Below, piece by piece: positions 6,786 through 41,773 of a stretch of 64,000 nucleotides of DNA (position 1 is its first letter; the number at the start of each line of letters is the position of its first letter). The notes beneath the pieces are model-generated. The model was not told the DNA's origin and did no database searches. It worked only from the letters and a program-made list of their open reading frames with translations. The stretch is from Bdellovibrio sp. NC01 (lineage in GTDB: Bacteria; Bdellovibrionota; Bdellovibrionia; Bdellovibrionales; Bdellovibrionaceae). Location of the stretch: positions 2,418,001-2,482,000 of the forward strand of contig NZ_CP030034.1 of assembly GCF_006874625.1 (NCBI RefSeq), in the 5' to 3' direction. A program made the translations under genes and the position numbers.

Positions 6786-6843
6786 AAGTTGCTTCAGCTT
6801 TCGCGCCTGCCGGCGCTGCAGCTCTGCGGGCTCCCGCCCCCTA
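6786..6843 (-). repeat. Post-stop GC-rich repeat, copy 1 (carD)
   Basis: Immediately after the carD stop codon TAG (6841-6843) lies a 55-base GC-rich sequence that matches, without gaps, the 55 bases after the stop of the DHS-like gene (41716-41770): I count 40 of 55 identical positions, with the block GCAGCTGxAGCAACTT-like end best conserved. It contains hairpin-forming parts, including CTGCAG CGC CGGCAG. In both copies it is followed by an intrinsic terminator. I do not recognise the family. Confidence 0.6.
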
Positions 6844-7335
6844 GGCTGTAACGCCGAAGATCGCTTTCACTTCTTCTTCCATGAAAAGCTCTTCTTGGCT
6901 TGTCGCCAAAGTCAGCTCTTTCAAAAGAAGACTGCGTGCAGAATCAAGCATCTTGCGTTCGCCGAAAGAAAGCTCTTTATCGGCTTTCAAAAGGAACAAG
7001 TCGCGCAAAACTTCAGCAATTTCGAAGACAGATCCAGTTTTGATCTTCTCCATATATTCACGATAACGACGATTCCAAGTTTGGTTGTCGATTTTGATGT
7101 CTTTTTCTTTAAGAATGCCTACTACACGAGCAGCTTCAGTTTTAGAAATGATGGGACGAAGACCAGCAGATTTAACATTTGTTGTCGGAATCATGATTTT
7201 AAGACCTGTATCTACCAATTGCATATTGTAGAAGGTCGTTTTCGTGCCTAACATTTCTTTAGTTTCAATAGCTACAACTTTAACTACGCCGTAGCCGGGA
7301 TAAACTGCATTATCACCGATATTAAATGTCTGCAT
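6841..7335 (-). CDS. CarD/CdnL-family RNA-polymerase-binding transcription regulator
   Basis: CarD/CdnL proteins bind the RNA polymerase beta subunit and stabilise open complexes, notably at rRNA promoters, and are widespread in Deltaproteobacteria-like lineages and actinobacteria. The 164-residue protein begins with the Tudor-like RNAP-interaction domain (FNIGDNAVYPGYGVV, then KIMIPTTN and GLRPIIS) and continues with the helical DNA-contacting domain (NRRYREYMEKIKTG, SFGERKMLDSARSLLLKEL). Length is typical of the family. The ATG is preceded by GCGAGG at 8 bases. A sigma70-like promoter can be placed at 7375-7403. The stop is followed at once by the 55-base repeat and then by a terminator. 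Confidence 0.95.
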   Translation of the reverse strand: MQTFNIGDNAVYPGYGVVKVVAIETKEMLGTKTTFYNMQLVDTGLKIMIPTTNVKSAGLRPIISKTEAARVVGILKEKDIKIDNQTWNRRYREYMEKIKTGSVFEIAEVLRDLFLLKADKELSFGERKMLDSARSLLLKELTLATSQEELFMEEEVKAIFGVTA

Positions 7336-7374
7336 CCGAGAACCTCGCTTTTGGACAGAGATCGAACCTTCACT

Positions 7375-7403
7375 GTTCTATCAAATTTGACACGAGTTAT
7401 CAA
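7375..7403 (-). promoter_or_regulatory. Candidate sigma70-type promoter of carD
   Basis: On the minus strand TTGATA (7403-7398) and TAGAAC (7380-7375) are separated by 17 bases, matching 5/6 and 4/6 of the consensus, with the predicted transcript starting roughly 30 bases before the carD ATG. The rest of the gap 7336-7510 holds only a weak, distant inverted repeat (7452-7458 with 7493-7499). Confidence 0.4.
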
Positions 7404-7510
7404 ACCAGAGCACCGCTCCAGGAAATTATTTCAGAGGGAAATTCAGGTGAAAAATGCCCTTAACGCCAAGTGCTGATGATGCAATGATTTCAGGCATTTA
7501 AGGTATGTTA

Positions 7511-9706
7511 CTAAAGTGGCCGAACTGAGTAGATTAAAGCAAAAGCTTGAGTATTTCTCGGGCCTTCGGGAACTCTATAGCCCCTAATTGTCAGTTGGTA
7601 AATTCCGGGCGTTAGGCCTGACAACTCCAGGCTTTCAACGTTATTCACGTGGTCTTCGGACTTCCAAATGTGACCATCAGGATACATTAGCTCCAAATCA
7701 AGGTCGTTCACCAAAGCCGCAGCAGCATTGGGAGAGCCCGGAGCATCCGTCCAAACCAAGTTCGCATACAAGCCTGATTCTTTCGTGACAGTGATCGTGT
7801 AAGTGACCGCTTGATCTTGCGCAACACCGTCGCGCGCATCAATCACGTGGGTCTCGGTATCGTGCGAACCCAGCGCCACCATGTTTTGCATATTCACGCG
7901 ACCATACCCCTCGTCAACGTTCGGGCGAGTCACCAAAATCTCTTGGCCTTTTTCTGCGCCCACGGCACCGAACTGACCGGGAAATAAATCTTCCGCAGAG
8001 TGCAACAACATCGCCTTCACAAGCGCTGCCGAAGGATTTGCAATCCCCCATTTTTCAATCAACATCTGACGAGTCACACCCGCAGCACCCGCTGTCAGAG
8101 GTGCCGCCATCGATGTGCCCCCCGACCATGTGTAGTCTTTGCTAAAATAACCCCACAAACTGGAAGCGCCGTCTTGATGCGATTTCACGCCTAAGATGTT
8201 TGTTCCGGGGGCGACAACATCGGGTTTTAAACGACCATCTTTTGTAGGCCCACGCGAAGAAAATGGCGCAAGTCCACGTTCGTTGTCTGACATTTTTGAA
8301 GAGGCTAAAGGTTCCGCCGCCCACAAGGTGCGACCTTCATTGAGTTTACCAATTTGTGATTGCAGGCCACCATTCGCGACCCAATTTTTAGAAGCGCCCA
8401 CTGTCAGACAGTTTTTTGCAGTGCCCGGAGAGCCCAAACTCATCTCATCGATGCGCCCATCTTTGTTCATGTCAGCACCGTTGTTACCGGCAGCAAAGAC
8501 AACCAACATATCGGGATTGTTGTAAGTCCATTCATCGACCTGCACCGCCGAAGCATCGTAGGCACCCGGATCTTTATTTGATCCCCACGAGTTGGAATGA
8601 ACTCGTGCACCGGATTTAAAAGCAGCATCGAACAATGTTGAAAGCTTTGATGGCACCGTCATGTTCTTCACCAGGGGCGACCACATACTGCCAGCAATCA
8701 AAGAGGCTTCGATGGCGCCACCATGAACCGCGCGATCAGATAAAATTCCGCGACCGACCATCAAGCCCGCCACATGAGTTCCATGCCCCATCGGATCAGC
8801 CCACGAAGTGGAACGCAAACCGAAAGCTTGTCCTTCGATCACGGCATCATGTAGGTCTGGCGTCAAAGTCTGCACATCACCCGAGTCCACGCCCGTATCA
8901 GCCATCGCTAAGATCTGCCCTCGACCGGTGAAAGCTTCCGCGTAAGCCGCATCAAAGTTCATCAACTTTGTTCCCGATTCATAACCAGTCAAAGTCGGTG
9001 GCGCATCGGCATCAGAAGTTTGGAAATCGTAAAGCTCTATTTTTGGTGGAGTCGAAATATGCTCAACCCCTGTTAACATTGCAATCTGCGGAATGAAGTG
9101 CTTACGCGTATAGATCGCAAACTGTTTTCCATGAAATGCATTCGCAAAGTTGTTCGCTTTATTGCCTTGAGAAGTTAAAGAACCACTTAAGGTTGCAGAG
9201 TCTTCAAGTTCAATAAGCGCTTGCGGATCGATCGCTTTGATTTTAGCAAAGATGTTTTGCGCCTCACTGGCGTTGAAGATCCTGATGATTAAAATCTGTG
9301 CTTCGTCCTTATTAAAGACACTTAAGCTTAATAATTCAGATTCTACTTTAAATTTCCAATCGTATTTTACGAAGCCACTGACGTTACTGTGAGTACTTTG
9401 AAACTCACGAAGTTGTAAAGCCGTCGCACGCACAACAAAGGCATCATCAGGGATGTAACCAAAAACTTGGAATGACTTATTCAATGATCTTTTTTGCAGA
9501 ACATTTAACGGTCGCTTGAACTGCAAGATGAACTCAGTCGCTTCAACAGACATTAAATCGTCGGCTGAAAAGTCAGAAATTGCCGCAGATGAGTTTGTCG
9601 AAATTGTGGCGTAATTAAGTTTTAAAGAAGTGCCCGCATAGGCAGATGGCCAAACAAGGAACGAGGCAAAAAATAGAATGATGAAAGCCAGAGACTGTTG
9701 GCCCAT
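7511..9706 (-). CDS. Secreted subtilisin-like (S8) serine protease, KP-43 type
   Basis: A 731-residue extracellular or periplasmic endoprotease. An N-terminal signal peptide (to about residue 24, SAYA) is followed by a propeptide-like region of about 200 residues, then the catalytic domain with Asp270 (MADTGVD), His308 (GHGTHVAG), oxyanion Asn408 (AAGNNG) and nucleophile Ser532 (GGTSMAAP). The C-terminal part from about 610 (LYANLVWTDAPG, NDLDLELMYPDG, YQLTIRGYRVP) is the beta-sandwich typical of KP-43-like subtilases. All catalytic residues are present. Such enzymes are abundant in predatory bacteria and a role in prey digestion is plausible but only inferred. No terminator is obvious after the stop. 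Confidence 0.95.
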   Translation of the reverse strand: MGQQSLAFIILFFASFLVWPSAYAGTSLKLNYATISTNSSAAISDFSADDLMSVEATEFILQFKRPLNVLQKRSLNKSFQVFGYIPDDAFVVRATALQLREFQSTHSNVSGFVKYDWKFKVESELLSLSVFNKDEAQILIIRIFNASEAQNIFAKIKAIDPQALIELEDSATLSGSLTSQGNKANNFANAFHGKQFAIYTRKHFIPQIAMLTGVEHISTPPKIELYDFQTSDADAPPTLTGYESGTKLMNFDAAYAEAFTGRGQILAMADTGVDSGDVQTLTPDLHDAVIEGQAFGLRSTSWADPMGHGTHVAGLMVGRGILSDRAVHGGAIEASLIAGSMWSPLVKNMTVPSKLSTLFDAAFKSGARVHSNSWGSNKDPGAYDASAVQVDEWTYNNPDMLVVFAAGNNGADMNKDGRIDEMSLGSPGTAKNCLTVGASKNWVANGGLQSQIGKLNEGRTLWAAEPLASSKMSDNERGLAPFSSRGPTKDGRLKPDVVAPGTNILGVKSHQDGASSLWGYFSKDYTWSGGTSMAAPLTAGAAGVTRQMLIEKWGIANPSAALVKAMLLHSAEDLFPGQFGAVGAEKGQEILVTRPNVDEGYGRVNMQNMVALGSHDTETHVIDARDGVAQDQAVTYTITVTKESGLYANLVWTDAPGSPNAAAALVNDLDLELMYPDGHIWKSEDHVNNVESLELSGLTPGIYQLTIRGYRVPEGPRNTQAFALIYSVRPL

Positions 9707-9762
9707 GACGCCCCTCCCTTAAAAGGAGTTAGATCATGAGCCGCGAGGGGTATCAATAGAAC

Positions 9763-10170
9763 TTAGAGTTGATGCGCCATGACAGCAAGCGACATATTGC
9801 CTGCCATACGGCCTTTGGCTCCTACGCCCACTTCCATCTCTTGATTTTCAGGAGCGAAGATTTGCGCGCGCTCAGACGCTTTTTTAACGCCGCGAACACG
9901 TTTCGTGACAGTGACATCCATGAAAATGCCTTCTTTGCGATTTACTTGGGATTTTTTCGCGAACACTTCAACCAATGTTTCGCTTTGACCGTCGTCAGAG
10001 AATTCGCTGATGAAAGTCTTTTTGCCCGATTTCGCAACAGTATTGATGGCAAGCGGAGCTTGGCCTTTCAAACCGACACGCATATTAACTTGATATGAAG
10101 GAACCGCTGCAAAACTTTGCGCGGAAAATAGGAATGCTGTAGCTACAACGCTGAAGAAACTCTTTTTCAT
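9763..10170 (-). CDS. Small exported protein of unknown function
   Basis: From ATG 10170 the product has 135 residues: a signal peptide (MKKSFFSVVATAFLFSAQSFA) and a mature part rich in beta-strand-like, charged segments (VNMRVGLKGQAPLAIN, KKTFISEFSDDGQ, VEVFAKKSQV, MDVTVTKRVRG). The ATG has AAGGA at a suitable distance, whereas the longer frame starting at 10227 adds a non-signal-like extension, so the shorter start is chosen. I do not recognise the family. It lies between recG and the subtilase gene on the same strand; nothing ties it functionally to either. Confidence 0.8.
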   Translation of the reverse strand: MKKSFFSVVATAFLFSAQSFAAVPSYQVNMRVGLKGQAPLAINTVAKSGKKTFISEFSDDGQSETLVEVFAKKSQVNRKEGIFMDVTVTKRVRGVKKASERAQIFAPENQEMEVGVGAKGRMAGNMSLAVMAHQL

Positions 10171-10258
10171 TTTGTCACATCCTTGTGAACTTATATAAAG
10201 GATGGCTGAAAAATATTTCCGCTTCAACTACATTTGTTCTATTTCGTAAAAATATTTT

Positions 10259-12346
10259 TTAAGCGATTCCGGCCAATGCTGCAGGACCGTGCTCACGAAG
10301 TAGTTCTTCGCGCAGGCCTTTGTTATCTTGGAATGACAGTTTCGGATCTTTTTTCAGAACCTCGAAAGCCGCTTCACGCGCTTGTTGCAAGATCGCCATG
10401 TCGCGAACCAAGTTTGCAAGCTTGAATCCCGCTAAACCGGATTGACGCGTGCCCATGAATTCTCCGGGCCCACGCATTTCAAGATCGAATTCGGCAATCT
10501 TAAATCCATCCGAAGTTTTTTCCATCATTTCGGTGCGCTGCTTACCTTCTTCTGACACAGCATAACCCATGATCAGAATACAGAAGCTCTTGTGTTCACC
10601 CCGTCCGACACGGCCACGCAACTGATGAAGCTGCGAAAGCCCAAAGCGTTCGGCGTGTTCGATAATCATGATATTGGCGTTTGGCACGTCGACGCCGACT
10701 TCGATCACCGTTGTAGAAACCAAAACTTGGATTTCATGGCGACGGAATTGATTCATGACTTCGTCTTTTTCAGCAGGTTTCATTTTCCCGTGCAACAATC
10801 CGAACTTAACCTGTGGGAATTGCTGCTGGAGTTTTTCAAACTCGCTGACGGCATTCTTTAAATCGATCTTTTCGCTTTCTTCCACCAACGGATAAACGAA
10901 ATAAGCCTGACGACCCTTTTGCAATTGTTCCAGCATAAACTGCAAAGCTTGAGGTCTTTTGCTATCGAAAATCGCGCGCGTTTGAATTGGACTTCTGCCA
11001 GGTGGCATTTCATCGATGATCGAAACATCCAAATCACCATAAACAGTCATCGCCAATGTTCGTGGAATCGGTGTTGCTGTCATAATCAAAAAATGCGGCG
11101 ACTTGCCTTTGTTTTTTAAAACGCCACGTTGTTCAACACCGAAACGATGTTGTTCATCGATGATGGCTAAACCAAGATTTGAAAAAACCACTTCGTCTTC
11201 AATCAAAGCGTGAGTACCGATGATCAAATCGATTTCGCCTGATTGCAGTTCGAATAACAACTCTTTGCGTTCCGAAGCTTTGGTTTTACCGACCAACAAA
11301 CCAAGTCGTACACCTAATGGCGCCAAAACTTTCTGCGCGTTTTTAAAATGCTGTTCCGCTAAAATTTCTGTCGGCGCCATCAAACACGATTGGAAACCGC
11401 TTTCCATCGCATAAAGTGCCGCCATGAAACTAACCAGCGTTTTACCACTTCCCACATCACCTTGAACCAGACGATGCATCGGATGACCTTTTTCAAGATC
11501 CGCTTTGATTTGGGCGAAAACTTTTTTCTGCGCGCCCGTTAACTGATAAGGCAAAGATTTTTCTAAGGCCGCTAATTTGTGACCGGCATTTTCAATTTTC
11601 GGGGCACCCTCTTTTTGAAAGCCCGCCTTACGAGATGCTAACCACAACTCAAGCCAGAAGAATTCTTCAAAAATAATACGACGTTGAGCAGCCGTTTTAA
11701 ATTCCGCATATTCAGCGGCTTTAGCTGGGTCGGGAAAATGCATTTCCTTTAGAGCATCTTTGCGTGATTTTAATTCGTATTTTTGCAGCAACCATTTCGG
11801 CAGGGCTTCTTCAGGCCACTCTTCTATTTGGGCAAAAGCTGAACGGACAAGCTTTTGAATTTTCGCTGTCGCAAGTCCTTCGATCTCTGTGTACAGCGGA
11901 ATCAAAGCATCTTGAGTTTCTTCATCGGGTTCAATGTCGCGAATATCAGGATGATGAAACTCGATGCGCCCACGATACTCTGTCACTTTGCCGACAACAC
12001 GCACTTCCGTGAAGGGTTTGAAGCGCTCAAAATAACCTTTGTAAGGAACGCGGAAGTATTTGCAGTGAATTTGTCCGGAAGCATCTTTCACAACGACGTC
12101 GTACATTTTGCGTGTCGAACGTCCCATATTGATACTGTGAACTGCGACGACTGTCGCTTTGATGCTGACAATATCGTCCGGTTTGAGACTCGCAATGTTG
12201 CGAGCCGCCCTTTGATCTTCATAGGCACGCGGATAGAACTCAAAGAGATCTCTTAAGGTTTTTAAACCTTTGCGATTGAAGAGGTCGCCCAGTTTGGGAC
12301 CGACTCCTTTTAGGTACATTATCTGCGTATCTAGACGAAGGGCCAT
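10259..12346 (-). CDS. recG: ATP-dependent DNA helicase RecG
   Basis: RecG remodels stalled replication forks and branch-migrates Holliday junctions. The 695-residue protein has the N-terminal wedge/OB region (YLKGVGPKLGDLFNRKGLKTLRDL helix-hairpin start, then the OB fold to about 140), Walker A GDVGSGKT at 296-303, the DEQH box with HRFGVEQR, motif III TATPIPRT, and the RecG-typical C-terminal helicase motifs (HGKMKPAEKDEVM, STTVIEVGVDVPNA, QLRGRVGRG). Length is usual. The start codon lies a few bases from the divergent HD-GYP gene region, so both promoters must sit within roughly 60 bases or overlap coding sequence. Confidence 0.98.
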   Translation of the reverse strand: MALRLDTQIMYLKGVGPKLGDLFNRKGLKTLRDLFEFYPRAYEDQRAARNIASLKPDDIVSIKATVVAVHSINMGRSTRKMYDVVVKDASGQIHCKYFRVPYKGYFERFKPFTEVRVVGKVTEYRGRIEFHHPDIRDIEPDEETQDALIPLYTEIEGLATAKIQKLVRSAFAQIEEWPEEALPKWLLQKYELKSRKDALKEMHFPDPAKAAEYAEFKTAAQRRIIFEEFFWLELWLASRKAGFQKEGAPKIENAGHKLAALEKSLPYQLTGAQKKVFAQIKADLEKGHPMHRLVQGDVGSGKTLVSFMAALYAMESGFQSCLMAPTEILAEQHFKNAQKVLAPLGVRLGLLVGKTKASERKELLFELQSGEIDLIIGTHALIEDEVVFSNLGLAIIDEQHRFGVEQRGVLKNKGKSPHFLIMTATPIPRTLAMTVYGDLDVSIIDEMPPGRSPIQTRAIFDSKRPQALQFMLEQLQKGRQAYFVYPLVEESEKIDLKNAVSEFEKLQQQFPQVKFGLLHGKMKPAEKDEVMNQFRRHEIQVLVSTTVIEVGVDVPNANIMIIEHAERFGLSQLHQLRGRVGRGEHKSFCILIMGYAVSEEGKQRTEMMEKTSDGFKIAEFDLEMRGPGEFMGTRQSGLAGFKLANLVRDMAILQQAREAAFEVLKKDPKLSFQDNKGLREELLREHGPAALAGIA

Positions 12347-12405
12347 ACTTGGTCAGTATTGCGGATTTTATTTCTAAGTCAATGAATTCATGGCAGAATT
12401 CCTCT

Positions 12406-13353
12406 ATGGAGTCCTCCAATTATTTCAGAATACGCCTGACGACGATCCGTCCCGACAAGGTGACGGCATTCGATATTTTTGTACTTGTTGATAACAGGTA
12501 CGTCCTGTACTTGCGCGCAGGCGATAAGCTTTCCGATGGAAAGATTGAACGCTTGCACTCGCGTGACACGGGGGATTCTTTCTTTGTGCGCATTGAAGAC
12601 AAACAAGCGTACCGTGACTGGGTCCGCGAAGAGATGAACTCTTCGTTGATCGATCCTTTTTCAAAGGCAAAAATCCTGCGCGAATCCTCTGTGGCTTTGA
12701 TGGAAGATCTTTTTGAGAATCCTGACGTCAATACCGCTTTAGATGAGTCTCGCCCGATCATTAAAGACTTCATCGACCTGATGGAAGGGGCCCCGGAAGC
12801 GATGGGCTTCATGATTTCTTTATCGGGCCATGATTTTTACACTTACAATCACTCTTTAGACGTCTCTATCTACTCGTTAGGTCTAGGGAAAGCGCTGGGT
12901 TACGATGCTAAAACGTTGGAAGAATTGGGTGTCGGCGCCCTTTTCCATGACATCGGTAAACGCAACGTCAGCTTGGACATCCTTTGCAAAAAAGGCGGCC
13001 TGACAGATGCCGAGTGGGAGCAAATGAAAATGCACCCGCAATACGGCTTAATTATTTTGAATAATCATCCGAATATTAGTGACGCAATTAAGGCGGCTTG
13101 CTTCGAGCATCACGAGTCATGGGCCGGCAACGGTTACCCACAACAACTCGTCGCTGAAGAGATCCACCCTTTTGCACGTATCGTCGCTATCACTGATACT
13201 TACGATGCAATGACGACTCAGCGTTCTTACAACGTTCCATTGAAGCCATTGGATGCAGTGGAAATGATGAAAGAAAAATTAGCGGGCCGTTATGATCCCG
13301 ATATGTTGAAAGCAATGTACTCTGTTTTGTTTAAGATAAAGGTCGCTTCATGA
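12406..13353 (+). CDS. HD-GYP domain protein (putative cyclic-di-GMP phosphodiesterase)
   Basis: HD-GYP proteins hydrolyse cyclic di-GMP. The N-terminal half (about 130 residues) is a domain I do not recognise; the C-terminal half carries the HD signature (FHDIGK, then LCKKGGLTDAEWEQMKMHPQYG) and a GYP motif written HHESWAGNGYP, in which the Asp of the usual HHExxDGxGYP is Ala, so activity could be altered. The start is unsettled: TTG 12349 (AAGGG upstream, but three bases from recG), ATG 12382, or ATG 12406, chosen because it leaves promoter space; none has a convincing Shine-Dalgarno. The stop overlaps the start of the next gene by four bases (ATGA), indicating translational coupling. Confidence 0.88.
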   Translation: MESSNYFRIRLTTIRPDKVTAFDIFVLVDNRYVLYLRAGDKLSDGKIERLHSRDTGDSFFVRIEDKQAYRDWVREEMNSSLIDPFSKAKILRESSVALMEDLFENPDVNTALDESRPIIKDFIDLMEGAPEAMGFMISLSGHDFYTYNHSLDVSIYSLGLGKALGYDAKTLEELGVGALFHDIGKRNVSLDILCKKGGLTDAEWEQMKMHPQYGLIILNNHPNISDAIKAACFEHHESWAGNGYPQQLVAEEIHPFARIVAITDTYDAMTTQRSYNVPLKPLDAVEMMKEKLAGRYDPDMLKAMYSVLFKIKVAS

Positions 13354-13730
13354 AGAACATTATTCACTCTGTCTTTTTAATCGCGCTTATTCCGTTGATC
13401 GCTATGGCGCTTGAACCAACAAATCCGCAGGGCTTCTGCGATCGTTTCGTTGGCGATAAAGATGTCTCTCAATGCAAAGAGAAGATTCAAAAAGATGATG
13501 TTGATTGGTATGCAGCCACTGTTTGCAATCTTCAACACGATGATAAAACGTTCTGGTCATGCTGGGACAGCATCAAAGGTCAAAGCTTCAACCCTGCTGC
13601 TTTAGATAAATGCGCAGAGAACCAAGAGCTTTCAGATGTACAACGACAAGAGTGCGTTGTCTCAGCTCGTGCTGGCCGCGAACCTGCTTCAACAAATGCG
13701 ATCTACCAAGCATTAAAAGTTACTAAGTAA
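13350..13730 (+). CDS. Small exported cysteine-containing protein
   Basis: A 126-residue protein with a signal peptide (to about residue 20, PLIAMA) and six cysteines in the mature part (CDRF, SQCKEK, TVCNLQ, SCWDS, DKCAEN, ECVVS), which suggests disulphide bonding in the periplasm. It overlaps the HD-GYP stop by four bases and is therefore probably translated with it, and it ends in a good terminator. I do not recognise the family; the coupling to a cyclic-di-GMP enzyme is the only clue to role. Confidence 0.8.
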   Translation: MKNIIHSVFLIALIPLIAMALEPTNPQGFCDRFVGDKDVSQCKEKIQKDDVDWYAATVCNLQHDDKTFWSCWDSIKGQSFNPAALDKCAENQELSDVQRQECVVSARAGREPASTNAIYQALKVTK

Positions 13731-13758
13731 TCGCACTTACTAATTAAATTTTTTGAAG

Positions 13759-13789
13759 GCCTCGAATAGGATCTATTTGAGGCTTTTTT
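13759..13789 (+). terminator. Intrinsic terminator after the HD-GYP operon
   Basis: The stem GCCTCGAATA / TATTTGAGGC (one G-T pair) with a short loop is followed by seven T residues. Confidence 0.8.
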
Positions 13790-13848
13790 ATTTCCCCCGT
13801 CCTTGACTCTTCGTATCCAGGCTTCATCGTTTGTCACGGAGGCCCCAC

Positions 13849-14568
13849 ATGGATTCACACATTGCAAATGCGGAAGTTCCTGAATCACAGGACATGCTCA
13901 ACGAGGCCTCTTCACAACCTTATATCTGGCATCGTGTAAGTGCCACATGGTTAAGTCGTAAACCTTCTGTCAATGCGGGGATCATCTCAGCGTTGGCGAC
14001 TTTTATTCTCATCATTGGCAGTGTGATCTATCAGCAAAATTTCTTTCATGCGCAAGAGTGGATGGCAGCAAGTCCCCAACGAGTTTTCCAACACAAAGAA
14101 TACTGGCGACTATGGACGACTTTGTTTGCTCATGCTGACGTTCATCACTTGCTTTCAAACACGCTCTTCTTTTTTATTCTGGGATATTTTATTAACGGCT
14201 ATTTTGGTTTAGCCTTGTTCCCGTTTGCGGCTTTTGCCTTTGGTGGCATCACAAATATTTTCGTCCTGATGAACATGCCTGAAGATGTGAAATTGATTGG
14301 CGCTTCAGGTGTCGTGTATTGGCTTGCCGGTTTATGGCTGACACTTTATTTTGCGATTGATAAACGCCGTACAATTTCGGCGCGCGCCTTGCGTAGTGTG
14401 GGTGTTGCATTGGGTGTCTTCATGCCGACCACGGCTTTTGATCCTTCCGTCAGCTATAGTGCGCATTTGATTGGCTTTATCATTGGTGCTCTTTATGCGG
14501 GTTTATATTACTGGCGTCATCGTCGCAAATTTAATGCTGCCTTGGAATATCAAATATTCGTCGACTGA
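13849..14568 (+). CDS. Rhomboid-family intramembrane serine protease
   Basis: Rhomboids cleave transmembrane substrates within the inner membrane. The 239-residue protein has about six hydrophobic segments, the family motif HADVHHLLSN in the loop/TM2 region, the catalytic GASG serine (GASGVVYWL) and the catalytic histidine in SAHLIGFIIGALYAG. Both members of the Ser-His dyad are therefore present. ATG 13849 is chosen because GGAGG precedes it at six bases; the longer frame starts at a TTG inside this ribosome-binding site. It stands alone between a terminator and a 197-base gap. Confidence 0.93.
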   Translation: MDSHIANAEVPESQDMLNEASSQPYIWHRVSATWLSRKPSVNAGIISALATFILIIGSVIYQQNFFHAQEWMAASPQRVFQHKEYWRLWTTLFAHADVHHLLSNTLFFFILGYFINGYFGLALFPFAAFAFGGITNIFVLMNMPEDVKLIGASGVVYWLAGLWLTLYFAIDKRRTISARALRSVGVALGVFMPTTAFDPSVSYSAHLIGFIIGALYAGLYYWRHRRKFNAALEYQIFVD

Positions 14569-14765
14569 TTCGTGCACTGAGGTTCGACATATTTTGTGAA
14601 ACGCCTCATGCTATTCTGAGAAATCTTTTATTTGGCTATTGAAAATTCAGCGAAATTTGAGACGTCAGCAGATATTTTGTCTAGATGACTACGAAATTAT
14701 CTTCGTGAAACAACTCAGAAGCCGCAGATCTGTTAGAATAAAAAAATTGAATTGAGGGAGAGACA

Positions 14766-33882: not shown

Positions 33883-34674
33883 TTACTCTAAAACTTCGAG
33901 AGTATCGCCAATTTTGATTTGTCCTTCGTTCTCAGGAATCCACAAGACACCGAAGTTTACGCCCTTGTCATCGCGACGATACGACGCCAAAGTTTTCAAC
34001 GGTTCAGCACCCGTTTTTTCTCCGGTTTTTTGGTCGATAGTGATGATCGCACAACGCGCGCATTTCTTCGGTAACGAGAAAACCACTTCGCCGATTTTGA
34101 TTTTCTTCCAAGATTCTTCTTCGAACGCCTGACCACCTTGGAACACAATATTAGGACGGAAACGATCAACACCGACTGGAGTTCGCAGGCGGCCATTTAG
34201 ATCTTCCAAACTTTTTGTATTTACTAAAAGTAAAGGACGACCGTCAGAAAAACGCACTTCAGGTTTCCAATCCGCTTGATGAGAAAGCACGCGGCGTTGT
34301 GAATAAGGCGCATAACGAACCAAACGACAATTTGTCCCTAGGTACTGCGACAACCCCTGCGAGTACAGATCTGGTTCCAAAGCGGCTTCAAACGTATCAT
34401 TCCATACCGACACTTTGACCTTGCGCTGGAACGAGTTGTTCTTAGAAATTTTAAAGAACATCTTTTGAAAACCCACAGTCAATGCAGCCTGATCATTGAA
34501 GACTTCCACAGTTGCAAGCTTAGGAACGGTTCTTTGCGAAACGAACTTTCCATTTTCATCAATCAGCATCCACTGGCGATCGCCCTCTGGACCTTCATGG
34601 GTGATTTTCATGTCTTTAACTGCTTGGCCACGCGCCGACTTAATCGGATAGATAAAAAGTTCTTCAATTCTCAT
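33883..34674 (-). CDS. MOSC domain protein with MOSC-N beta-barrel (YcbX/mARC-like)
   Basis: The 263-residue protein begins with the MOSC-N signature (IEELFIYPIKSARGQAVKDMKITHEGPEGDRQWMLID, split here as the barrel) and ends with the MOSC domain: VGVDRFRPNIVF, CARCAIITIDQKTGEKTGAEPLKTLASYR and FGVLWIPENEGQIKIGDTLEVL. The conserved Cys of RCAIITID is the expected molybdenum ligand. Relatives reduce N-hydroxylated compounds with the molybdenum cofactor. No ferredoxin domain follows, so an external electron donor would be needed. No clear ribosome-binding site is seen before the ATG. Confidence 0.9.
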   Translation of the reverse strand: MRIEELFIYPIKSARGQAVKDMKITHEGPEGDRQWMLIDENGKFVSQRTVPKLATVEVFNDQAALTVGFQKMFFKISKNNSFQRKVKVSVWNDTFEAALEPDLYSQGLSQYLGTNCRLVRYAPYSQRRVLSHQADWKPEVRFSDGRPLLLVNTKSLEDLNGRLRTPVGVDRFRPNIVFQGGQAFEEESWKKIKIGEVVFSLPKKCARCAIITIDQKTGEKTGAEPLKTLASYRRDDKGVNFGVLWIPENEGQIKIGDTLEVLE

Positions 34675-34792
34675 AGCGCAAGTTTTCTGCGAGTGGCGTT
34701 TACAGGCAAGAGCTTTCTATTTCAGTGAGCTTGCGCGTCCAAGTTTTTAATCCGCTGTCCACCGATCCAAGGTCTGCCCGGCGTTAATGTCG

Positions 34793-34821
34793 TTTACGCT
34801 AAACACAGACCTCTTTAGAAT
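34793..34821 (+). promoter_or_regulatory. Sigma70-like promoter of the hydrolase/GMC operon
   Basis: TTTACG (34793-34798) and TAGAAT (34816-34821) are separated by exactly 17 bases, 4/6 and 5/6 of consensus, and lie about 22 bases before the GTG start, with AAGGAA as ribosome-binding site between. Upstream, GCGCAAG and CTTGCGC form a widely spaced inverted repeat around 34677-34738. Confidence 0.6.
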
Positions 34822-34843
34822 AAAATAAACAAAGGAAACATTA

Positions 34844-36616
34844 GTGACAACACATCGCACTTCCCTCGAGTTCACAGAGAGAATGGCCGGCCACTTCGTG
34901 CCAAAACAATTCAACCTTTCTGCAGAAAATCCCCTTAAGAAAAACGATTTCGTACAGATTGAATCAGGTTCAAATCGAGAAGATTTTGAATTCACTTTGA
35001 CGATCAAAACCAACGACATCGATCAGTTCATTACCGATCCTCTTTTACAAGCAGAAGCCTTCGGCGTGATTAGTGGACTTTCAGACCAAGAACCTTTGAA
35101 AATCGAACAAGGTATTTTCAATCTGTTTGTGCGCCCTGATGCGAGCCCTGATTTAGATACAGCAAAAGAAATGCACTACACCCTATTCTTGAAAGATGCC
35201 CAAGGAAAACCGTGGACTTTCTTTGGCTTCAAAGAGGTCGTCAAAGAAGACACCTTTGAGATGTGGGCGCAAACGACAACGCTGTATTATTATATCTGGG
35301 AAGGCCATTCGACGTTTGATAATCCCATCGCTAAAAAAGTGCGCGGCGTAGGAATTTTGCGAATTTCAGTCAGCGACTTCATCAAGCAATTAACGACATT
35401 TAAAACGAATGCTGCTTCGATCGTCGATGAACAAGAAGCTATCGTAAAATTCTTAAACGTCTTTGCTGGTAATTTGTGGCAGGCCTATGCGCCGTTTGTT
35501 TTTACAACCACAAGTTCGCGTTGGAACGAGCATCTATTCCCAATGAATACCACTCAAGGTGTGGCTATGGGGGAAAAGACGTTACATCCCATCGATACCC
35601 ACGACGGGCTTACGATTTCTTTGCAACGCTTTAAAGTGAAAGAAACGAAAAACGTCGTGCTGCTTTTGCACGGTCTGACAACTTCAACGGACATGTACAT
35701 CATGCCCGAGCATCAAAACTTTGTGAACTATCTGCATTCGAATGGTTTTACGGATGTATGGTCATTGGATTGGCGTGGAAGTGGCAGATTCACTTACAAC
35801 TTGATGCCACACCGTTATAACTTAGACGACATCGCAAAGAACGATATTCCGAAAGCTTTGGAGTTCATTCGTCAAAGCTGCGGTAAAGACGTCAAAGTTC
35901 ACGTGGTCTGCCACTGCGTGGGTTCAATCAGCTTCATGGCGTCGCTTGCTGCGGGTTATGTCGACAATATTGCAAGTATCATTTCAAACAGCGTATCGCT
36001 AAGTCCAAAAGTTCGCTGGCAGGCATTTTTAAAGATGATCTTTGGACCCGAACTTCTTGAATACATCTTTGGTTATGCGTACATCAGTCCGCGCATGGCC
36101 TACTTCCCGGGGCCGGGGTTTGGTAAATGGTTATACTGGATGGAGCGAGGCATTCGTCACGAATGTAAAGAGCCTGCCTGTCACCTCGTTAGTTTCATGT
36201 GGGGTTGGGGTTATCCTGCCGCTTACAACCATCGCAACATGCATCCGACGACTCACCGTCGTTTAGTGGATCTATTTGGTGGCACAAGTTTTCACTATTA
36301 TCGCCATATTCGAAAAATGCTTTTTGCGAAAGCATCGGTGTCGTTCGATAAAAAAATTAATTACCTTGAAGAGTGTAAAAAGAAAACTCTGCCGCCGACG
36401 TTGTTTATCAGTGGCAGCGACAATCACATCTTCCCAGGATCGAACAAACAAACTTATGAAGCTCTAAAAGACAGCAAAAACGCAGACCGCGTACAATATC
36501 TTGAATTCGCCAATTACGGCCATCAAGACACATTCATGGGTCAGTATTCACATATCGAAGTGTTCCCACAACTTTTAGCGTTCTTAAAAAAACACGAGGT
36601 GCGCGATGCAAATTGA
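34844..36616 (+). CDS. Alpha/beta hydrolase with N-terminal accessory domain and Cys at the nucleophile position
   Basis: The 590-residue protein has two parts. Residues 1 to about 225 (FTLTIKTNDIDQFITDPLLQAEAFG, FNLFVRPD, TTTLYYYIWEGH) form a domain that I recall from long GMC-oxidoreductase fusion proteins of other bacteria. The rest is an alpha/beta hydrolase: oxyanion segment LLLHGLTTSTDMY, nucleophile elbow VVCHCVGS with Cys358 where Ser is usual, acid segment FISGSDNHIFPG and a late His in FANYGHQD. A Cys nucleophile is known in PHA synthase-like hydrolases. The start is GTG with AAGGAA upstream. It overlaps the next gene by 11 bases, and its C-terminus has no membrane segment. Confidence 0.85.
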   Translation: MTTHRTSLEFTERMAGHFVPKQFNLSAENPLKKNDFVQIESGSNREDFEFTLTIKTNDIDQFITDPLLQAEAFGVISGLSDQEPLKIEQGIFNLFVRPDASPDLDTAKEMHYTLFLKDAQGKPWTFFGFKEVVKEDTFEMWAQTTTLYYYIWEGHSTFDNPIAKKVRGVGILRISVSDFIKQLTTFKTNAASIVDEQEAIVKFLNVFAGNLWQAYAPFVFTTTSSRWNEHLFPMNTTQGVAMGEKTLHPIDTHDGLTISLQRFKVKETKNVVLLLHGLTTSTDMYIMPEHQNFVNYLHSNGFTDVWSLDWRGSGRFTYNLMPHRYNLDDIAKNDIPKALEFIRQSCGKDVKVHVVCHCVGSISFMASLAAGYVDNIASIISNSVSLSPKVRWQAFLKMIFGPELLEYIFGYAYISPRMAYFPGPGFGKWLYWMERGIRHECKEPACHLVSFMWGWGYPAAYNHRNMHPTTHRRLVDLFGGTSFHYYRHIRKMLFAKASVSFDKKINYLEECKKKTLPPTLFISGSDNHIFPGSNKQTYEALKDSKNADRVQYLEFANYGHQDTFMGQYSHIEVFPQLLAFLKKHEVRDAN

Positions 36617-37706
36617 TTTCCACTTAGGAGTCACTTACGTCCTTGCCCGCATGAGTGGCTTTAGTCCCTTTGAAGCGAACACCATCGCCAGCAGTTCACA
36701 ATATGTCGACGACGCTGTTGAGTCAGGAAAGATCTTATTCACAAACAGATCCGCTTATGAATTCGAAGCCAGTGCGCATCGCATGTTAGACTATCGCAAT
36801 TTTGAAGAGCTTGCGAATCATCACGTGTGGATTCCTTTCCACTTTATTCCCGGCAACGAAATCCGCAGCAGCGGCGCCGATTCCTTGGTGCAAAGGCTGA
36901 TCTGCCGTCCTAATAGCGTCATCGCTCAAGATATTCTTAAAAGCACAATCACAAACTTTAATCGCAACTTCGGTTATCACCTGCTTGGTGTAACAACGCA
37001 CGCCTACGTCGATACCTGGGCCCATCAGGGCTTTGCCGGCATCACTGACAAAGTAAATATGGTTGATGAGATCTACGACGACGAAGGCGAACTGGATCAA
37101 GAGATGATGACCTATCGCAAGAAATACTTCCGCAGAAATCCACTGCGTCGCCTGGTTGACTGGATCAAATCTTTTTTTGTCAGCAAGTATCTGCCGGTGG
37201 GGCACGGTTCGGTCTTAAGTTATCCGGACTTGCCCTACTTGCGTTGGCGCTACAAAGACTGGGAAGGTCGCATCATTCGTCGCGACAACCCGGCCGATTA
37301 CATGCAAGCCGTCCATCATGTCCTGGAATTCTTTAAAGAGGTTCGCAAAGCGCACAATTTACCGTTGGTAAAAGTTTTCGACGAAGACATTGCAAAAATC
37401 AAAGAGCTGATTGAAAGCATCGACGACGAAGAAGGCACGGATCGTTTAGAAAAATGGAAAAACGAAATTCTTTGCGGCGCTTTTAAATTTGGAACCGATG
37501 TCTGGAGATATCAAGCGGAAGGCCCAGAGTCCTGGCTGAAAGAAGCCTTCGATATCGAATTCCACGAACAATTTGAAATGGAAAACGTGGCTTACAAGGA
37601 CTCTTTCTTAAAATCCAACTGGAAGATGATGCACGATGCGCTGATTTATTATCGTTTCAGCGTCCTGCATGAGGTTCTTCCTAAACACGAAATCTGTGTA
37701 GCGTAA
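36606..37706 (+). CDS. DUF6765-like, PLC-like metal-dependent protein of unknown function
   Basis: A 366-residue cytoplasmic-looking protein with the start MQIDFHLGVTYVLARMSGFS, then ASSSQYVDDAV, FHFIPGNEIRS and THAYVDTWAHQGFAGI. The spaced His/Asp residues (DFH, QYVDD, HAYVDTWAHQ) resemble the metal-binding pattern of zinc-dependent phospholipase C/P1-nuclease-like helical folds, and the opening matches what I recall of DUF6765; both are tentative. It overlaps the hydrolase gene by 11 bases and precedes the GMC gene by 8 bases, so it is a fixed member of this operon. No signal peptide. Confidence 0.75.
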   Translation: MQIDFHLGVTYVLARMSGFSPFEANTIASSSQYVDDAVESGKILFTNRSAYEFEASAHRMLDYRNFEELANHHVWIPFHFIPGNEIRSSGADSLVQRLICRPNSVIAQDILKSTITNFNRNFGYHLLGVTTHAYVDTWAHQGFAGITDKVNMVDEIYDDEGELDQEMMTYRKKYFRRNPLRRLVDWIKSFFVSKYLPVGHGSVLSYPDLPYLRWRYKDWEGRIIRRDNPADYMQAVHHVLEFFKEVRKAHNLPLVKVFDEDIAKIKELIESIDDEEGTDRLEKWKNEILCGAFKFGTDVWRYQAEGPESWLKEAFDIEFHEQFEMENVAYKDSFLKSNWKMMHDALIYYRFSVLHEVLPKHEICVA

Positions 37707-37714
37707 GGTTCAAC

Positions 37715-39406
37715 ATGAAAACTGATTTTGATTATGTCGTTATTGGTTCTGGTTTCGGTGGCTCAGTCATGAGCTGTCGTTTGACTGAAAAAGGTTACAA
37801 CGTTTGTTTGCTAGAGCGCGGTCGTCACTGGAAAATGCATGAATTCCCCCGCCGCCCGCAAGATATTCAAGACAATATGTTCTGGGACCCGGAAGATAAA
37901 AAATTTGGTCTGATGGAGTTCCGCGACACACCCGAAAGTGACGTCATGACTTTGACTGCCAGTGGCCTTGGCGGTGGCAGCCTGATTTACGCAAACGTTT
38001 TGTATCGAATGCCAGAAGAGTTTTTCCAATTAGGTTGGCCTAAGATCTTTAATCGCAAAACGCTTGATCCCTACTATGACAAAGTGATCGCAACGATGGA
38101 GGCGAAACCCTATCCCGTCGATACCGACAGTTATTATAAAAACACGCCGAAAACATTTGCACTGAAGAAAGCCGCTGAAGAAATGCCACAGAATCCTGAG
38201 GCAACGGCGAAACAGGAATTTGTGCTTCCTCCCCTTGCGGTCCGTTTTGAAGGCGAATTCCCAGGACATCAAACTTTGAATTCCCATGGTGCCATTCAAT
38301 CGAAATGCACGAAATGCGGTGAATGCGATATCGGTTGCAACATCCACGCAAAAAATACTTTAGATCTGAATTACATTCAACGTGCGCGCTTCTTGAAAAA
38401 CGCTGGCAAACTTGAAGTGAAAACTCAGGCTGAAGTAACGAAGATTGAACAGGTCGAGGGTCATTATAAAGTTACACTCGTTGTTCCAGAGTTCCCACTG
38501 CAAGAAATTGTCATCACAGCAAACAAAGTGATTGTGTCTGCGGGATCTGTGGGCTCATCGTCTTTACTTTTAAAAATGAAAGCCAAAGGTTATTTGCCAA
38601 AATTAAATAACAACCTTGGTAAAAAATGGTGTGGCAATGGCGATTTGCTGGGAATGGTTTTCGACGCAAAAAAACCGCTAGATCCAACGAATGGTCCCGT
38701 GATTACTGGTGCTATTAAGTATTCATTTAAAAATTATCCAGACGGTTTCCCGCACGGCATGTACTTAGAAGATGCGGGCTTCCCGATCGGCATGGCGTGG
38801 TACTTGTCAGGTAAAGTTCCACAATTCGATGGCATCACGGGCGTCTTTAAACTAGCGTGGCAAAATATTAAGAAATTCGTTTGTAAAACCTTTGGCATTC
38901 ACATCACACCGCAAATTAATGTCGGTGATGAATTTGCGCGCGCCTTGGATAAAGCGGACTTTGCCCGCCGTGCATTTGTTCTGTTGGGCATGGGCCGCGA
39001 TAGATCCGATGGCATCATTCGTTTGCGCGAAGATGGCCAAGCGGTGATTGAATGGAAAATGGATAAGAGCGAACTTCATTTCGAGCGCGTGCGCACTGAA
39101 ATGAAAAAGATCGCCGAAAATGTCGGTGGTGTTTTTGTCGAAAATCCCCTGACCTATTTGAATAAAGTCATCGCGGTTCATCCACTGGGCGGCTGCCCGA
39201 TGTCTGACGATCCTGCGGAAGGTTTTGTAAATTCAAAGGGTGAAGTCTATGGCTACGAAGGACTTTATGTGATCGATGGCAGTATTCTGCCAACGTCGAC
39301 GGGACCAAACCCGTCGCTGACGATTGCTGCCGTCGCTGAGTATATCGCAGATCAAATCCCCGTGAAGGTCAGACTGTCTGATTATTCCGCAGCGTCGGCG
39401 CAGTAA
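37715..39406 (+). CDS. GMC-family FAD-dependent oxidoreductase (cholesterol-oxidase-like)
   Basis: A 563-residue flavoenzyme beginning with the FAD Rossmann motif VVIGSGFGGSVMSCRL and LLERGRHW, a second FAD-binding segment TASGLGGGSLIYANVLYRMP, a four-Cys segment KCTKCGECDIGCNIHAKNTLD, and the C-terminal GMC end HPLGGCPMSDDP with IDGSILPTSTGPNPSLTIAAVAEYIA. The His in HPLGGC and the late Asn are the expected catalytic pair. Substrates in this subgroup include sterols and other hydroxylated lipids. No Tat or Sec signal is present, unlike secreted cholesterol oxidases. It ends four bases from the convergent thioredoxin/TPR gene. Confidence 0.9.
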   Translation: MKTDFDYVVIGSGFGGSVMSCRLTEKGYNVCLLERGRHWKMHEFPRRPQDIQDNMFWDPEDKKFGLMEFRDTPESDVMTLTASGLGGGSLIYANVLYRMPEEFFQLGWPKIFNRKTLDPYYDKVIATMEAKPYPVDTDSYYKNTPKTFALKKAAEEMPQNPEATAKQEFVLPPLAVRFEGEFPGHQTLNSHGAIQSKCTKCGECDIGCNIHAKNTLDLNYIQRARFLKNAGKLEVKTQAEVTKIEQVEGHYKVTLVVPEFPLQEIVITANKVIVSAGSVGSSSLLLKMKAKGYLPKLNNNLGKKWCGNGDLLGMVFDAKKPLDPTNGPVITGAIKYSFKNYPDGFPHGMYLEDAGFPIGMAWYLSGKVPQFDGITGVFKLAWQNIKKFVCKTFGIHITPQINVGDEFARALDKADFARRAFVLLGMGRDRSDGIIRLREDGQAVIEWKMDKSELHFERVRTEMKKIAENVGGVFVENPLTYLNKVIAVHPLGGCPMSDDPAEGFVNSKGEVYGYEGLYVIDGSILPTSTGPNPSLTIAAVAEYIADQIPVKVRLSDYSAASAQ

Positions 39407-39410
39407 AAGA

Positions 39411-41102
39411 TTATTGAGTCACCAGCGATTTTTTTAGTTCTTCCATCGCTGCAACTGTTTTCTTATTCGCCTCTAGTTTTGCTTCCGGTAAAGCTAGAGC
39501 TTTGTTCAAAGTTTCAGAGGCTTGTTTTTGTTGATTCAAGCCTTTTTGAATCTCTGCCAACATCTTCATGTTGTACAATTTCAAATCAGAAGTCAGTTCA
39601 ACCGCTTTTTCAGAATAAGGCAGTGCCTTTTCGAAATCTTTTTCACGGAAGTAGTAACCAGCAAGTTTCGTGTAGTAAACGTCTGATTTCGGATTTGCCT
39701 CGATCAATTGTTTTAGCCATTTCACGACGTCTTCTTTTTGACCTGCTTGTTTCATATAAGAAAACGCCGTCAACAATTGACCAGGACGAGCCACCGAAAG
39801 CTTCATCGCTGAAACTTCAGTCGCAAGTTCGTCCTTCGTGGCTTTCAAACGATCTTGGACATCGAGGAATTCATACGTGTTCGCAAGTTGCGCCAGAAGC
39901 TCAGCACGCTCAAAGCCCGTGTAATCGCCTTGCAAAGTGTTCGCGAAGAACGCTTTACGTTCTGCCGCTGTTGCCAAAAGTCTTTGGATTTCAGACAGAT
40001 TTTTATCAGCAATTGCTTTTGCTTCAGCTGGGATCGTCTTTTGTTCGCCTTTAAGGGCTTTCGCTAATTGCAAGCGCCAGTCCATCACTTCAGGCGATGC
40101 CGAATACACTGCAATCCACTTTTCCAAAGTCTTTTGATAAGCATCTTTAGTTTTAGCATCTTTTTCGAATGCTTCTTGTGCAACATTCACTTCGCTGACG
40201 GCCAACATCAAGCTGTTTTCATTTAATGGAGCTAGCCATTTCGCAGCTTCATCATATTTCATCGCATTGAAAGACAACGTCGCAAGAGTTTTGCGCGCCT
40301 CTTTATCGCCAGCTTCAGCTTTCTTCGTCAGTTCTGCTGTTGAAGCCAATTTTTTAGATTGCAGATCCGTCAATTCTTTCGCCAAAACGTCAGCCGTTCT
40401 GAAATCCAACAAACGCGCTAGTTCATCGCCATTGCCGTTCATTAAGATCATCGTTGGAATTGCGTGCACGTCGTATTTATCCGCCCAGATTTTATTATCT
40501 GCGCGATCAATGTTCACACTGACTTTGATCAATTTACCAGAAGCTTTAATGAATGCTTTTTCACCGAAAGTTTCAGTTTCAAGACGGATACAAGATGGGC
40601 ACCATGGAGCATTGAAATCAACGAGCACTGTTTTCTTTTGAGCTGCCGCTAACTTCAAAGCCTCTGCCAAGTTGTTTTCATAGAAGCCGTGTTTATTCTT
40701 TTTAAGTGCGGCTGGCTTTGCAACCACCGGCACTGCGGCTTGCACTTTATCAGCCGCATTCACAGCCGCGACAAGCTTGTCCGCTTTAATCACATAAGTT
40801 TCTTCATGCGACTCGCACACTGTGTTTTTGTCATCACAAACATAGAAACTTAATTTGAATGCTTGTCCTTTAGCAGAAGACGCGTCGAAGATGATTTCTT
40901 GCGCTTCTTTTTTAGTCGGCTCAACTGATTTGTCACCTATCGCTAAAGAGGCTGGTGCATCCTTATTGAAATGGAAGCCTTTATCGATATTACCGATAAT
41001 TTTTGTGCCTTGAAGTTTAAGATGTGCTTTACCGTCAGAAAGACGAGCGAAAGCTGTGAATGAAAAAGCTGCGAAAATAAGACTAATAAGAATCGTTTTC
41101 AT
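39411..41102 (-). CDS. Exported thioredoxin-fold protein with TPR repeats
   Basis: From ATG 41102 the product has 563 residues: a signal peptide (MKTILISLIFAAFSFTAFA), a DsbD-N-like beta domain with two Cys (FYVCDDKNTVCES), a thioredoxin domain with the redox motif WCPSC in VDFNAPWCPSCIRLETETF and cis-Pro in AIPTMILM, then a long helical region with TPR-like repeats (VYYTKLAGYYFREKDFEKALPYSEKAVEL). A periplasmic disulphide-handling role is likely. The start has no Shine-Dalgarno and is the last three bases of a perfect 12-bp hairpin; a GTG two codons upstream is the alternative start. Confidence 0.88.
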   Translation of the reverse strand: MKTILISLIFAAFSFTAFARLSDGKAHLKLQGTKIIGNIDKGFHFNKDAPASLAIGDKSVEPTKKEAQEIIFDASSAKGQAFKLSFYVCDDKNTVCESHEETYVIKADKLVAAVNAADKVQAAVPVVAKPAALKKNKHGFYENNLAEALKLAAAQKKTVLVDFNAPWCPSCIRLETETFGEKAFIKASGKLIKVSVNIDRADNKIWADKYDVHAIPTMILMNGNGDELARLLDFRTADVLAKELTDLQSKKLASTAELTKKAEAGDKEARKTLATLSFNAMKYDEAAKWLAPLNENSLMLAVSEVNVAQEAFEKDAKTKDAYQKTLEKWIAVYSASPEVMDWRLQLAKALKGEQKTIPAEAKAIADKNLSEIQRLLATAAERKAFFANTLQGDYTGFERAELLAQLANTYEFLDVQDRLKATKDELATEVSAMKLSVARPGQLLTAFSYMKQAGQKEDVVKWLKQLIEANPKSDVYYTKLAGYYFREKDFEKALPYSEKAVELTSDLKLYNMKMLAEIQKGLNQQKQASETLNKALALPEAKLEANKKTVAAMEELKKSLVTQ

Positions 41103-41129
41103 AGGCACATTAAAGTCAATGTGCCTATG
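41100..41129 (-). promoter_or_regulatory. Perfect hairpin ending in the start codon of the thioredoxin/TPR gene
   Basis: CATAGGCACATT and AATGTGCCTATG form a perfect 12-bp inverted repeat with a six-base loop. On the transcript of the minus strand, the final ATG of the 3' arm is the start codon. No T-tract follows, so it is not a standard terminator of the upstream PAS gene; sequestering of the initiation site is possible. Confidence 0.5.
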
Positions 41130-41146
41130 AATGTCTAGTCATTCCT

Positions 41147-41569
41147 TTATGCGGCCTTTTTGACGATCTCGCTTTGACCAGCGATTAAAATGCCGCTGAT
41201 TTGATCCTGATGAAAGATCGGCACCGCAAGGTCAACAAGGGTTTTAGCCCGCAGCTGCTCGCCCATGCTTTCGCGAACAAAGTAGCTTCGCTCTTTTGCC
41301 AAATCTTTACCTAGCAGCGCCCGCGCCGCTAAGGCTTTGAAGACCTCTAAGCCATCATTTTCGAAGTGATAAAGACTTTTGATATTGTAAAGACAAAGAT
41401 CCAACGGTGAATACGAAGTCATCTTCTTCATGTTTTCGTTATAGTAAATTAGATCGCCTTCTGAGTTCCACAGGCGAATGAGTTGTTGATCCTTTAAAAG
41501 CCTCAATGCTACGGGATCAACGGAAAGCTGACGTTGTTCAAGAAACGTCAGAAGAGCTTTCTGTGACAT
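41147..41569 (-). CDS. Stand-alone PAS-like sensory protein
   Basis: The 140-residue protein contains RLLKDQQLIRLWNSEGDLIYYNENMKKMTSYSPLDLCLYNIKSLYHFEN, LVDLAVPIFHQDQISGILIAGQSEIV, consistent with a single PAS/PAC fold (sensor strand, FxxhhG-like helix, then closing beta strands). There is no output domain. ATG 41569 is chosen because GGGGGA precedes it; the longer frame adds four residues. It follows the DHS-like gene and its terminator and precedes the thioredoxin/TPR gene. The partner or ligand is unknown. Confidence 0.65.
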   Translation of the reverse strand: MSQKALLTFLEQRQLSVDPVALRLLKDQQLIRLWNSEGDLIYYNENMKKMTSYSPLDLCLYNIKSLYHFENDGLEVFKALAARALLGKDLAKERSYFVRESMGEQLRAKTLVDLAVPIFHQDQISGILIAGQSEIVKKAA

Positions 41570-41655
41570 GCAATCCCCCACCGAACTCTAGAATACAAGC
41601 TCTGCCAAAAATTTCCTATCACGGGAATGAAATCTTAAAGAAAGCATCTCAAAAT

Positions 41656-41689
41656 AAAAAAAGGGCTTCCGTTGTAAGGAAGCCCTTTT
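41656..41689. terminator. Strong bidirectional terminator downstream of the DHS-like gene
   Basis: AAAAGGGCTTCC / GGAAGCCCTTTT, 12 bp with a seven-base loop, followed on the minus strand by seven T residues. It lies between the DHS-like gene with its repeat and the PAS gene, whose start is about 90 bases further on. Confidence 0.85.
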
Positions 41690-41715
41690 AATTTGTGTCT
41701 CATATTGTCGCAACG

Positions 41716-41773
41716 AAGTTGCTCCAGCTGCCGCGACTGCCGTGGCGGCAGCACTGCCCGCGTCCGCGGACTA
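41716..41773 (-). repeat. Post-stop GC-rich repeat, copy 2 (DHS-like gene)
   Basis: Begins immediately after the TAG stop (41771-41773) of the DHS-like gene and matches copy 1 after carD over 55 gapless bases with 40 identities. It contains the palindrome GTCCGCGGAC near its 5' end and the hairpin CTGCCG CCA CGGCAG at the same position as the imperfect hairpin in copy 1; GCAAC TTC GTTGC follows. It is then followed by a terminator. Confidence 0.6.

Follow-up and report, generated by a model that had tools for sequence, protein, structure and literature searches.

Two 55-nt sequences in a 64,000-nt stretch of Bdellovibrio sp. NC01 DNA (the window) are copies of one structured element, which probably represents a genus-specific family of very short, non-autonomous double-hairpin elements that are mobile, or at least turn over very fast, and whose favoured slot is the base directly behind a stop codon. 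The evidence comes from the size and distribution of the family, the covariation of its stems, its position relative to stop codons and the comparison of orthologous sites in related species.

The element copies in the window

The two copies (Table 1) align without gaps on the minus strand (6840-6786 against 41770-41716) with 40/55 identities, as an earlier note on this DNA had described, and the runner-up ungapped placements in the window score 28/55 (30 for copy 2 against its own opposite strand). It also holds that both copies start at the first base after the TAG stop of their host genes, carD and a deoxyhypusine-synthase-like gene (DHS), and that a terminator-like hairpin with T-run stands behind each. 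The central hairpin claimed for both copies could be upheld for one of them: in the minimum-energy fold of copy 2, where the usual internal loop is closed, CTGCCG pairs with the second CGGCAG within P3-P4, but the CTGCAG/CGGCAG pairing named for copy 1 is absent from the fold of that copy. Taken alone, the folding z-score of the window copies is modest (-2.1).

Table 1 Element copies, host genes and neighbouring hairpins in the window
Feature	Position	Strand	Basis
Element copy 1 (whole)	6786..6840	-	R1 79.0 bits, E 3.3e-14 in own genome; blastn family
Copy 1 hairpin P1, GGGC-GGGA-GCCC	6828..6839	-	consensus structure with covariation; same fold when folded alone
Copy 1 stacked stem P2-P3-P4, GNA/GNA-type internal loop	6791..6827	-	consensus structure with covariation
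Host gene carD, TAG stop directly 5' of element copy 1	6841..7335	-	Pfam CarD_C and CarD_TRCF_RID
Intrinsic-terminator-like hairpin and T-run behind copy 1	6729..6758	-	sequence
Element copy 2 (whole)	41716..41770	-	R1 69.6 bits, E 4.5e-12
Copy 2 hairpin P1, CCGC-GGAC-GCGG	41758..41769	-	consensus structure with covariation; own fold
Copy 2 stacked stem P2-P3-P4, with paired (closed) internal loop	41721..41757	-	consensus structure; own fold
Host gene, deoxyhypusine-synthase-like (DHS), TAG stop directly 5' of copy 2	41771..42820	-	PF01916
Intrinsic-terminator-like hairpin and T-run behind copy 2	41656..41689	-	sequence

Family size and taxonomic spread

A blastn-type search of the own genome (one contig of 3,975,853 bp) with either copy gave the 14 distinct places from which the covariance model R1 was built; R2 is a wider model. 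The covariance-model search, which the earlier note had set as its refuting test, found further copies: 24 in the own genome at E<0.02 (R1), both window copies included, and 23 at E<0.01 (R2). The window pair is thereby confirmed as real, beyond chance, and its two sequences are members of a large family. Across the genus (genomes whose records are titled Bdellovibrio) R2 (E<=1e-3) gave, among the matches listed, at least 302 copies in 22/24 genomes (a lower bound owing to strict match filters and a capped number of scored candidates) with 0 to 36 copies per genome, and in the other genomes of the order two copies, both in one of 116 genomes, again among the matches listed at this threshold. 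R1 also gave a single weak match in G044 (E 0.03, search at E<=0.1). A degenerate pattern run over genome_contigs (84,980 species) matched seven stretches, each with Bdellovibrio in its title; the own genome and records near it may have been excluded. The dispersed, lineage-specific structured element proposed earlier is thus borne out, with many copies, nearly all in Bdellovibrio genomes.

The same strict degenerate pattern had no exact match in viral_contigs; a phage origin was rejected on this count, a weak ground as it is one strict pattern. No Rfam family reached its gathering score in the window and none matched at E<=0.1 in five loci, and identity with a known RNA family of that collection was therefore rejected. 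The element family appears in no title or abstract opening of the Bdellovibrio literature covered (preprints and most subscription journals lie outside this coverage). The word 'repeat' was not found in the accessible part of PMC3627812, and in that of PMC12985086 B. bacteriovorus appears as a table row only.

Fold and covariation

The consensus structure comprises a 12-nt hairpin, P1 (columns 2-5/10-13), and then a longer stacked stem made of P2 (14-15/49-50), P3 (18-21/42-45) and P4 (25-29/34-38); P1 was missed by the script in 9/138 copies. In an alignment of 113 matches in relatives' loci (109 distinct rows), which was fitted to the structure and is biased in its favour, standard pairs fill 95.9% of the pair cells, double changes occur in 13/15 pairs, and the double-change cells number 185, where shuffles give 31.9 +/- 4.5 and slid controls 2 to 31. 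A structure-free MAFFT alignment of the first 14 own copies has 21 such cells against 6.9 +/- 1.9, the structure having been picked after folding those copies singly. Conservation is highest at positions that are mostly unpaired, namely AG behind P2, both G-N-A strands (N free) of the internal loop between P3 and P4, and GRA before the 3' strand of P2; the unpaired linkers and the GNA/GNA internal loop are near-invariant. G-U pairs outnumber A-C mismatches (16 against 4, p 0.012), which indicates that the sense strand is the folding strand. A copy behind pheT (L054:1501-1582) measures 82 nt in total, its P4 loop containing an additional hairpin-like insert.

Compensatory change, near-invariant unpaired positions and folding of the sense strand are also what would be expected of a selected post-stop RNA structure serving to protect the mRNA 3' end, to insulate adjacent genes or to help termination, its position following from function and the coding copies being by-products. 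We consider this explanation possible, at appreciably lower probability than mobility or fast turnover; further points on both sides of it emerge below.

Position relative to stop codons

Positions were read in the best 138 of the retrievable copies, taken by score and not as a random draw: 32 own-genome rows minus 4 duplicates and 4 weak ones, 113 rows of relatives minus 2 duplicates and 5 weak or overlapping ones, and all 8 rows of a further set. They form 84 site groups by upstream flank, orthologous sites in related species being incompletely independent, and ORF calls were mechanical. In the own genome 14/24 copies lie directly behind a same-strand stop (13 after ORFs of >=60 aa, and L052 after a shorter ORF, by eye), and the post-stop hosts encode, among others, CarD, deoxyhypusine synthase-like, RecA, TopoVI-A/Spo11-like, Tex, TldD/PmbA, Lgt, ApaG, pirin and M16 peptidase proteins. 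The 84 groups divide into 41 post-stop, 9 sense in ORFs, 7 antisense in ORFs and 27 'other', a class that still includes the post-stop copy L038 as well as L070, L131 and L132, whose ORFs continue across the element and end at a stop just beyond it; in some 'other' groups (L144, L133/L140) the first unit is partial and itself adjoins a stop.

In 41/84 groups, or 41/68 groups outside ORFs, the element starts at -2 to +4 nt relative to a stop on the same strand, whereas this slot makes up 4.0% of intergenic bases (1.26 Mb, rough gene calls; binomial p 1e-39). The preference for the start of the 3' UTR noticed earlier is therefore sustained, and the more general location at gene 3' ends holds in part, the remaining groups lying elsewhere, including in ORFs on either strand. 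Of the 44 groups with one or more post-stop copies, 41 have an upstream ORF of >=150 aa, and P2, the start of P2-P4, begins 12-14 nt behind the stop in 31/43 groups. A distance of 12-14 nt behind the stop is about that of the mRNA entry of a terminating ribosome. In a control of terminator-like hairpins (148 of 968 genes) the median start was 21 nt behind the stop, with 28/148 starting at <=4 nt, so that hairpins in general share the post-stop slot somewhat, but far less than the element. A terminator follows within 110 nt in only 18/44 post-stop groups. Identity with an intrinsic terminator was rejected: the element ends in a GCAACTT-like sequence without T-run, and separate terminators follow. 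At L058:1501-1555 the GGAGTAACTT end of the element runs into the ATG of the next gene, with GGAG 6 nt before that ATG, and the element may supply the ribosome binding site there.

The orientation of the copies speaks for a selected RNA structure, since 44 groups have a copy behind a same-strand stop against three sites at which only the inverted end abuts a stop (L104/L145, L111, L148). So do four convergent gene pairs in which both ends abut a stop and the element fills the gap between the two (L114, L130, L142 with L133/L140, L169).

The stop codons themselves are biased, with TAA 20, TAG 19 and TGA 2 per group, where mechanically called ORFs of >=150 aa lead one to expect 20.5, 11.3 and 9.2 (p 0.004). 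TAA or TAG stands at the foot of 62/69 post-stop copies (partly by definition), 7/43 'other' copies, 0/13 sense and 0/13 antisense intragenic copies; on these counts the idea that the element includes a TAG tag was rejected.

A stop codon directly in front and one open, Ala-rich frame behind it would also suit an element for programmed stop-codon readthrough, at which the earlier note had hinted. This idea we regard as very improbable: the gap to the stop modulo 3 is 0, 1 and 2 in 25, 10 and 9 groups, so that the frame is not kept, and the next in-frame stop follows 2 to 60 codons on in 41/44 groups, with no common end to the extensions.

Copies within open reading frames

Sixteen of the 84 site groups lie inside ORFs, and most are readable in Ala-rich frames; sequences like SAAAGSAGATAVAQAEAT appear in the sense frame and like ASASATAVAPALPAA in the antisense frame. 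Sense copies are found in PheT (within the B5 domain), in the C-terminal part of a ribonucleotide reductase, in ScpB, between the domains of lipoyl-E2 proteins (L068, L094, L097) and at the C-termini of a queuosine-biosynthesis protein and an ABC ATPase; an E2 also hosts an antisense copy, L102. The antisense ORFs at L055, L093 and L153 lack the Ala-rich frame and may be spurious. As judged from the predicted reading frames, open-frame copies appear to reside in loops, linkers and ends of proteins. Copies within ORFs, on both strands, count against a structure selected at mRNA 3' ends.

Turnover between species

Occupancy was compared between species, with one genome each. The element is present at the carD 3' end in 1/22 orthologs read (own genome only) and at the DHS 3' end in 2/22 (own genome and G014; one of 23 loci, L220, was misread), and the pheT element occurs in the own gene only among the 19 printed (18 other orthologs, with four more lacking motif-search success and the contig-cut L196 left out). 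The spacer behind pheT has different copies in several species. The patchiness at carD and DHS, like the two of 24 genus genomes with no copies among the matches listed (E<=1e-3), weakens the case for a selected RNA structure.

The site comparison covered 47 of 54 rows, the two window rows and five weak or overlapping ones being left out. Close relatives provide filled and empty versions of the same gene end, as at L318, where TTTGACTAA followed by the element stands against TTTGACTAACTAACCC; among three close relatives, further pairs are L307/L348 and L294:2955, and at the latter the empty genomes have TGA where the filled genome has TAG. These three pairs have no consistent target-site duplication, and a TA or TAG duplication, suggestive in single pairs, was not consistent across them. 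Unfilled orthologs can retain a remnant, TGAAGCAGCTT (L300 and L294:14454 sites), and two species (L336 against L294:14454) carry the element at the same gene end in opposite orientations.

Stems are exchanged at occupied sites. Between L332 and L294:762, 6/18 stem bases differ, in P4, with 9/9 pairs kept in both and 3/270 bases changed in the upstream flank, and three species have three different P1 hairpins at one orthologous site (L342/L299/L320); identical stems are kept at other sites (L307/L348, L313/L334). Summed over 15 pairs, differences amount to 44/244 in stems, 80/542 at other element positions and 292/4200 in the upstream flank, so the striking part is the block-wise, paired change of stems and not a higher stem rate. 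Plain transposition leaves stem exchange with near-constant flanks unexplained, and re-insertion or gene conversion must be added. It is the patchy occupancy, the filled and empty orthologous sites and the swapped stems together that argue for mobility or very fast turnover of the element.

A second palindromic family, unrelated to the element and about 122 bp long, was seen at L201, L202, L209, L213, L267, L313:4667, L327, L088 and others, with a varying outer stem like GGTCGATGAAAAGG/CCTTTTGATCGACC and inner CTGCGTTG and CTCCGCCTTGC. Eight of its 15 distinct copies in the fetched loci lie <=5 nt from a stop codon, four of these eight being at carD because carD loci were fetched.

Relation to known mobile repeats

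The earlier note had suggested a REP-like mobile sequence, and the element might be a REP mobilised by a Y1 (RAYT) transposase. REPs with GTAG tags (RAYTs for GTAG) or CGTC tags are likewise short GC-rich hairpins near gene 3' ends with some intragenic copies, known in several species and in tRNA synthetase genes too, and GTAG-REP termini often supply the TAG stop (PMC3733652). Y1 genes are common in the genus, with 79 matches in 21/24 genomes, and the same paper notes no obvious correlation between transposase genes and REPs. However, none of 49 Y1 loci (partly overlapping, and fewer than the 79 matches) has an element copy at E<=1 within 1.5-2 kb on either side; G022 has 12 Y1 matches and 3 elements, and G007 no Y1 match and 16-20 elements. 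GTAG stands at the foot of 15/138 copies, all post-stop and none of the 26 intragenic ones, and a CGTC tag was found in 3/138 copies by a loose test. Unlike tagged REPs, the element is without tag and without a Y1 link found, and it has a two-unit fold, conserved internal loops and exchangeable stems. What stands of the suggestion is the mobile-like dispersal; the tagged REP does not, and mobilisation by a RAYT is in our judgement unlikely. Inverted repeats enclosing the unit, a feature of MITEs, were not seen in the copies printed.

Y1 matches number 0 to 12 per genus genome, with most in G022 and G011. At an own-genome match (L272:1614-2400; G000:C1:612800-617000), which lies between two stretches about 70% alike, 41-nt inverted repeats stand 705 nt apart and are 93% complementary; the region is perhaps a RAYT-like unit flanked by inverted repeats.

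The best reading by analogy is that the element works like two other kinds of repeat. Rickettsia palindromic elements (RPE), palindromic repeats given as about 150 bp in one review, occur in-frame in unrelated protein genes (PMC10969869), and RPE-4 and RPE-6 are short CGTC REPs (PMC3733652). Compared by description and not by sequence, RPEs resemble the element in their in-frame copies in unrelated protein genes and differ from it in that the element is about 50 nt and has its main slot behind stop codons. Mobile GC clusters and double-hairpin elements of mitochondria are optional GC-rich hairpins of 30-80 bp, found in tandem arrays and in coding and rRNA genes, and for yeast M4 clusters an upstream TAG motif is a possible target (PMC4464245 and PMC2800124). 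They share the double-hairpin fold and the patchy presence, a resemblance for which no homology is claimed; whereas they belong to organelle DNA, the present element sits on a bacterial chromosome, and the TAG or TAA before it is in most cases a genuine stop codon.

Discussion

If the family is mobile, its folded single strand (RNA or ssDNA) would be recognised by host or other machinery, which would spread the copies; no moving agent was found among the partners searched, the Y1 transposases. An insert behind a stop codon would leave the gene and the following start signal intact, and in transcripts a post-stop copy would form the beginning of the 3' UTR. Probably the post-stop place is also preferred at insertion itself. 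Between targeting of this slot and selection for it we lean slightly towards targeting, because of the exactness of the slot, the inverted cases, the reuse of the slot by the second family and the shortage of TGA; the orientation bias and the conserved RNA loops speak for selection.

UAG and UAA are the codons of release factor 1. It is conceivable, though we give the idea rather little weight, that machinery which reads stop codons and prefers UAG/UAA places the element, insertion being coupled to termination or to the mRNA end made there. Such a process would fit the second family of about 122 bp in the same slot and the opposite orientations at L336/L294:14454, and, if true, the safe haven would be the stop codon in general and not any one gene.

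The element thus joins the intragenic habit of palindromic repeats and the habit of double-hairpin elements, in a predatory bacterium, and adds a sharp post-stop preference. Annotators should note that element inserts can be the source of Ala-rich tracts in Bdellovibrio proteins, PheT and E2 among them. The filled and empty orthologous sites in sequenced relatives make the family a clean case in which to learn how tiny elements move and whether stop codons can serve as a target.
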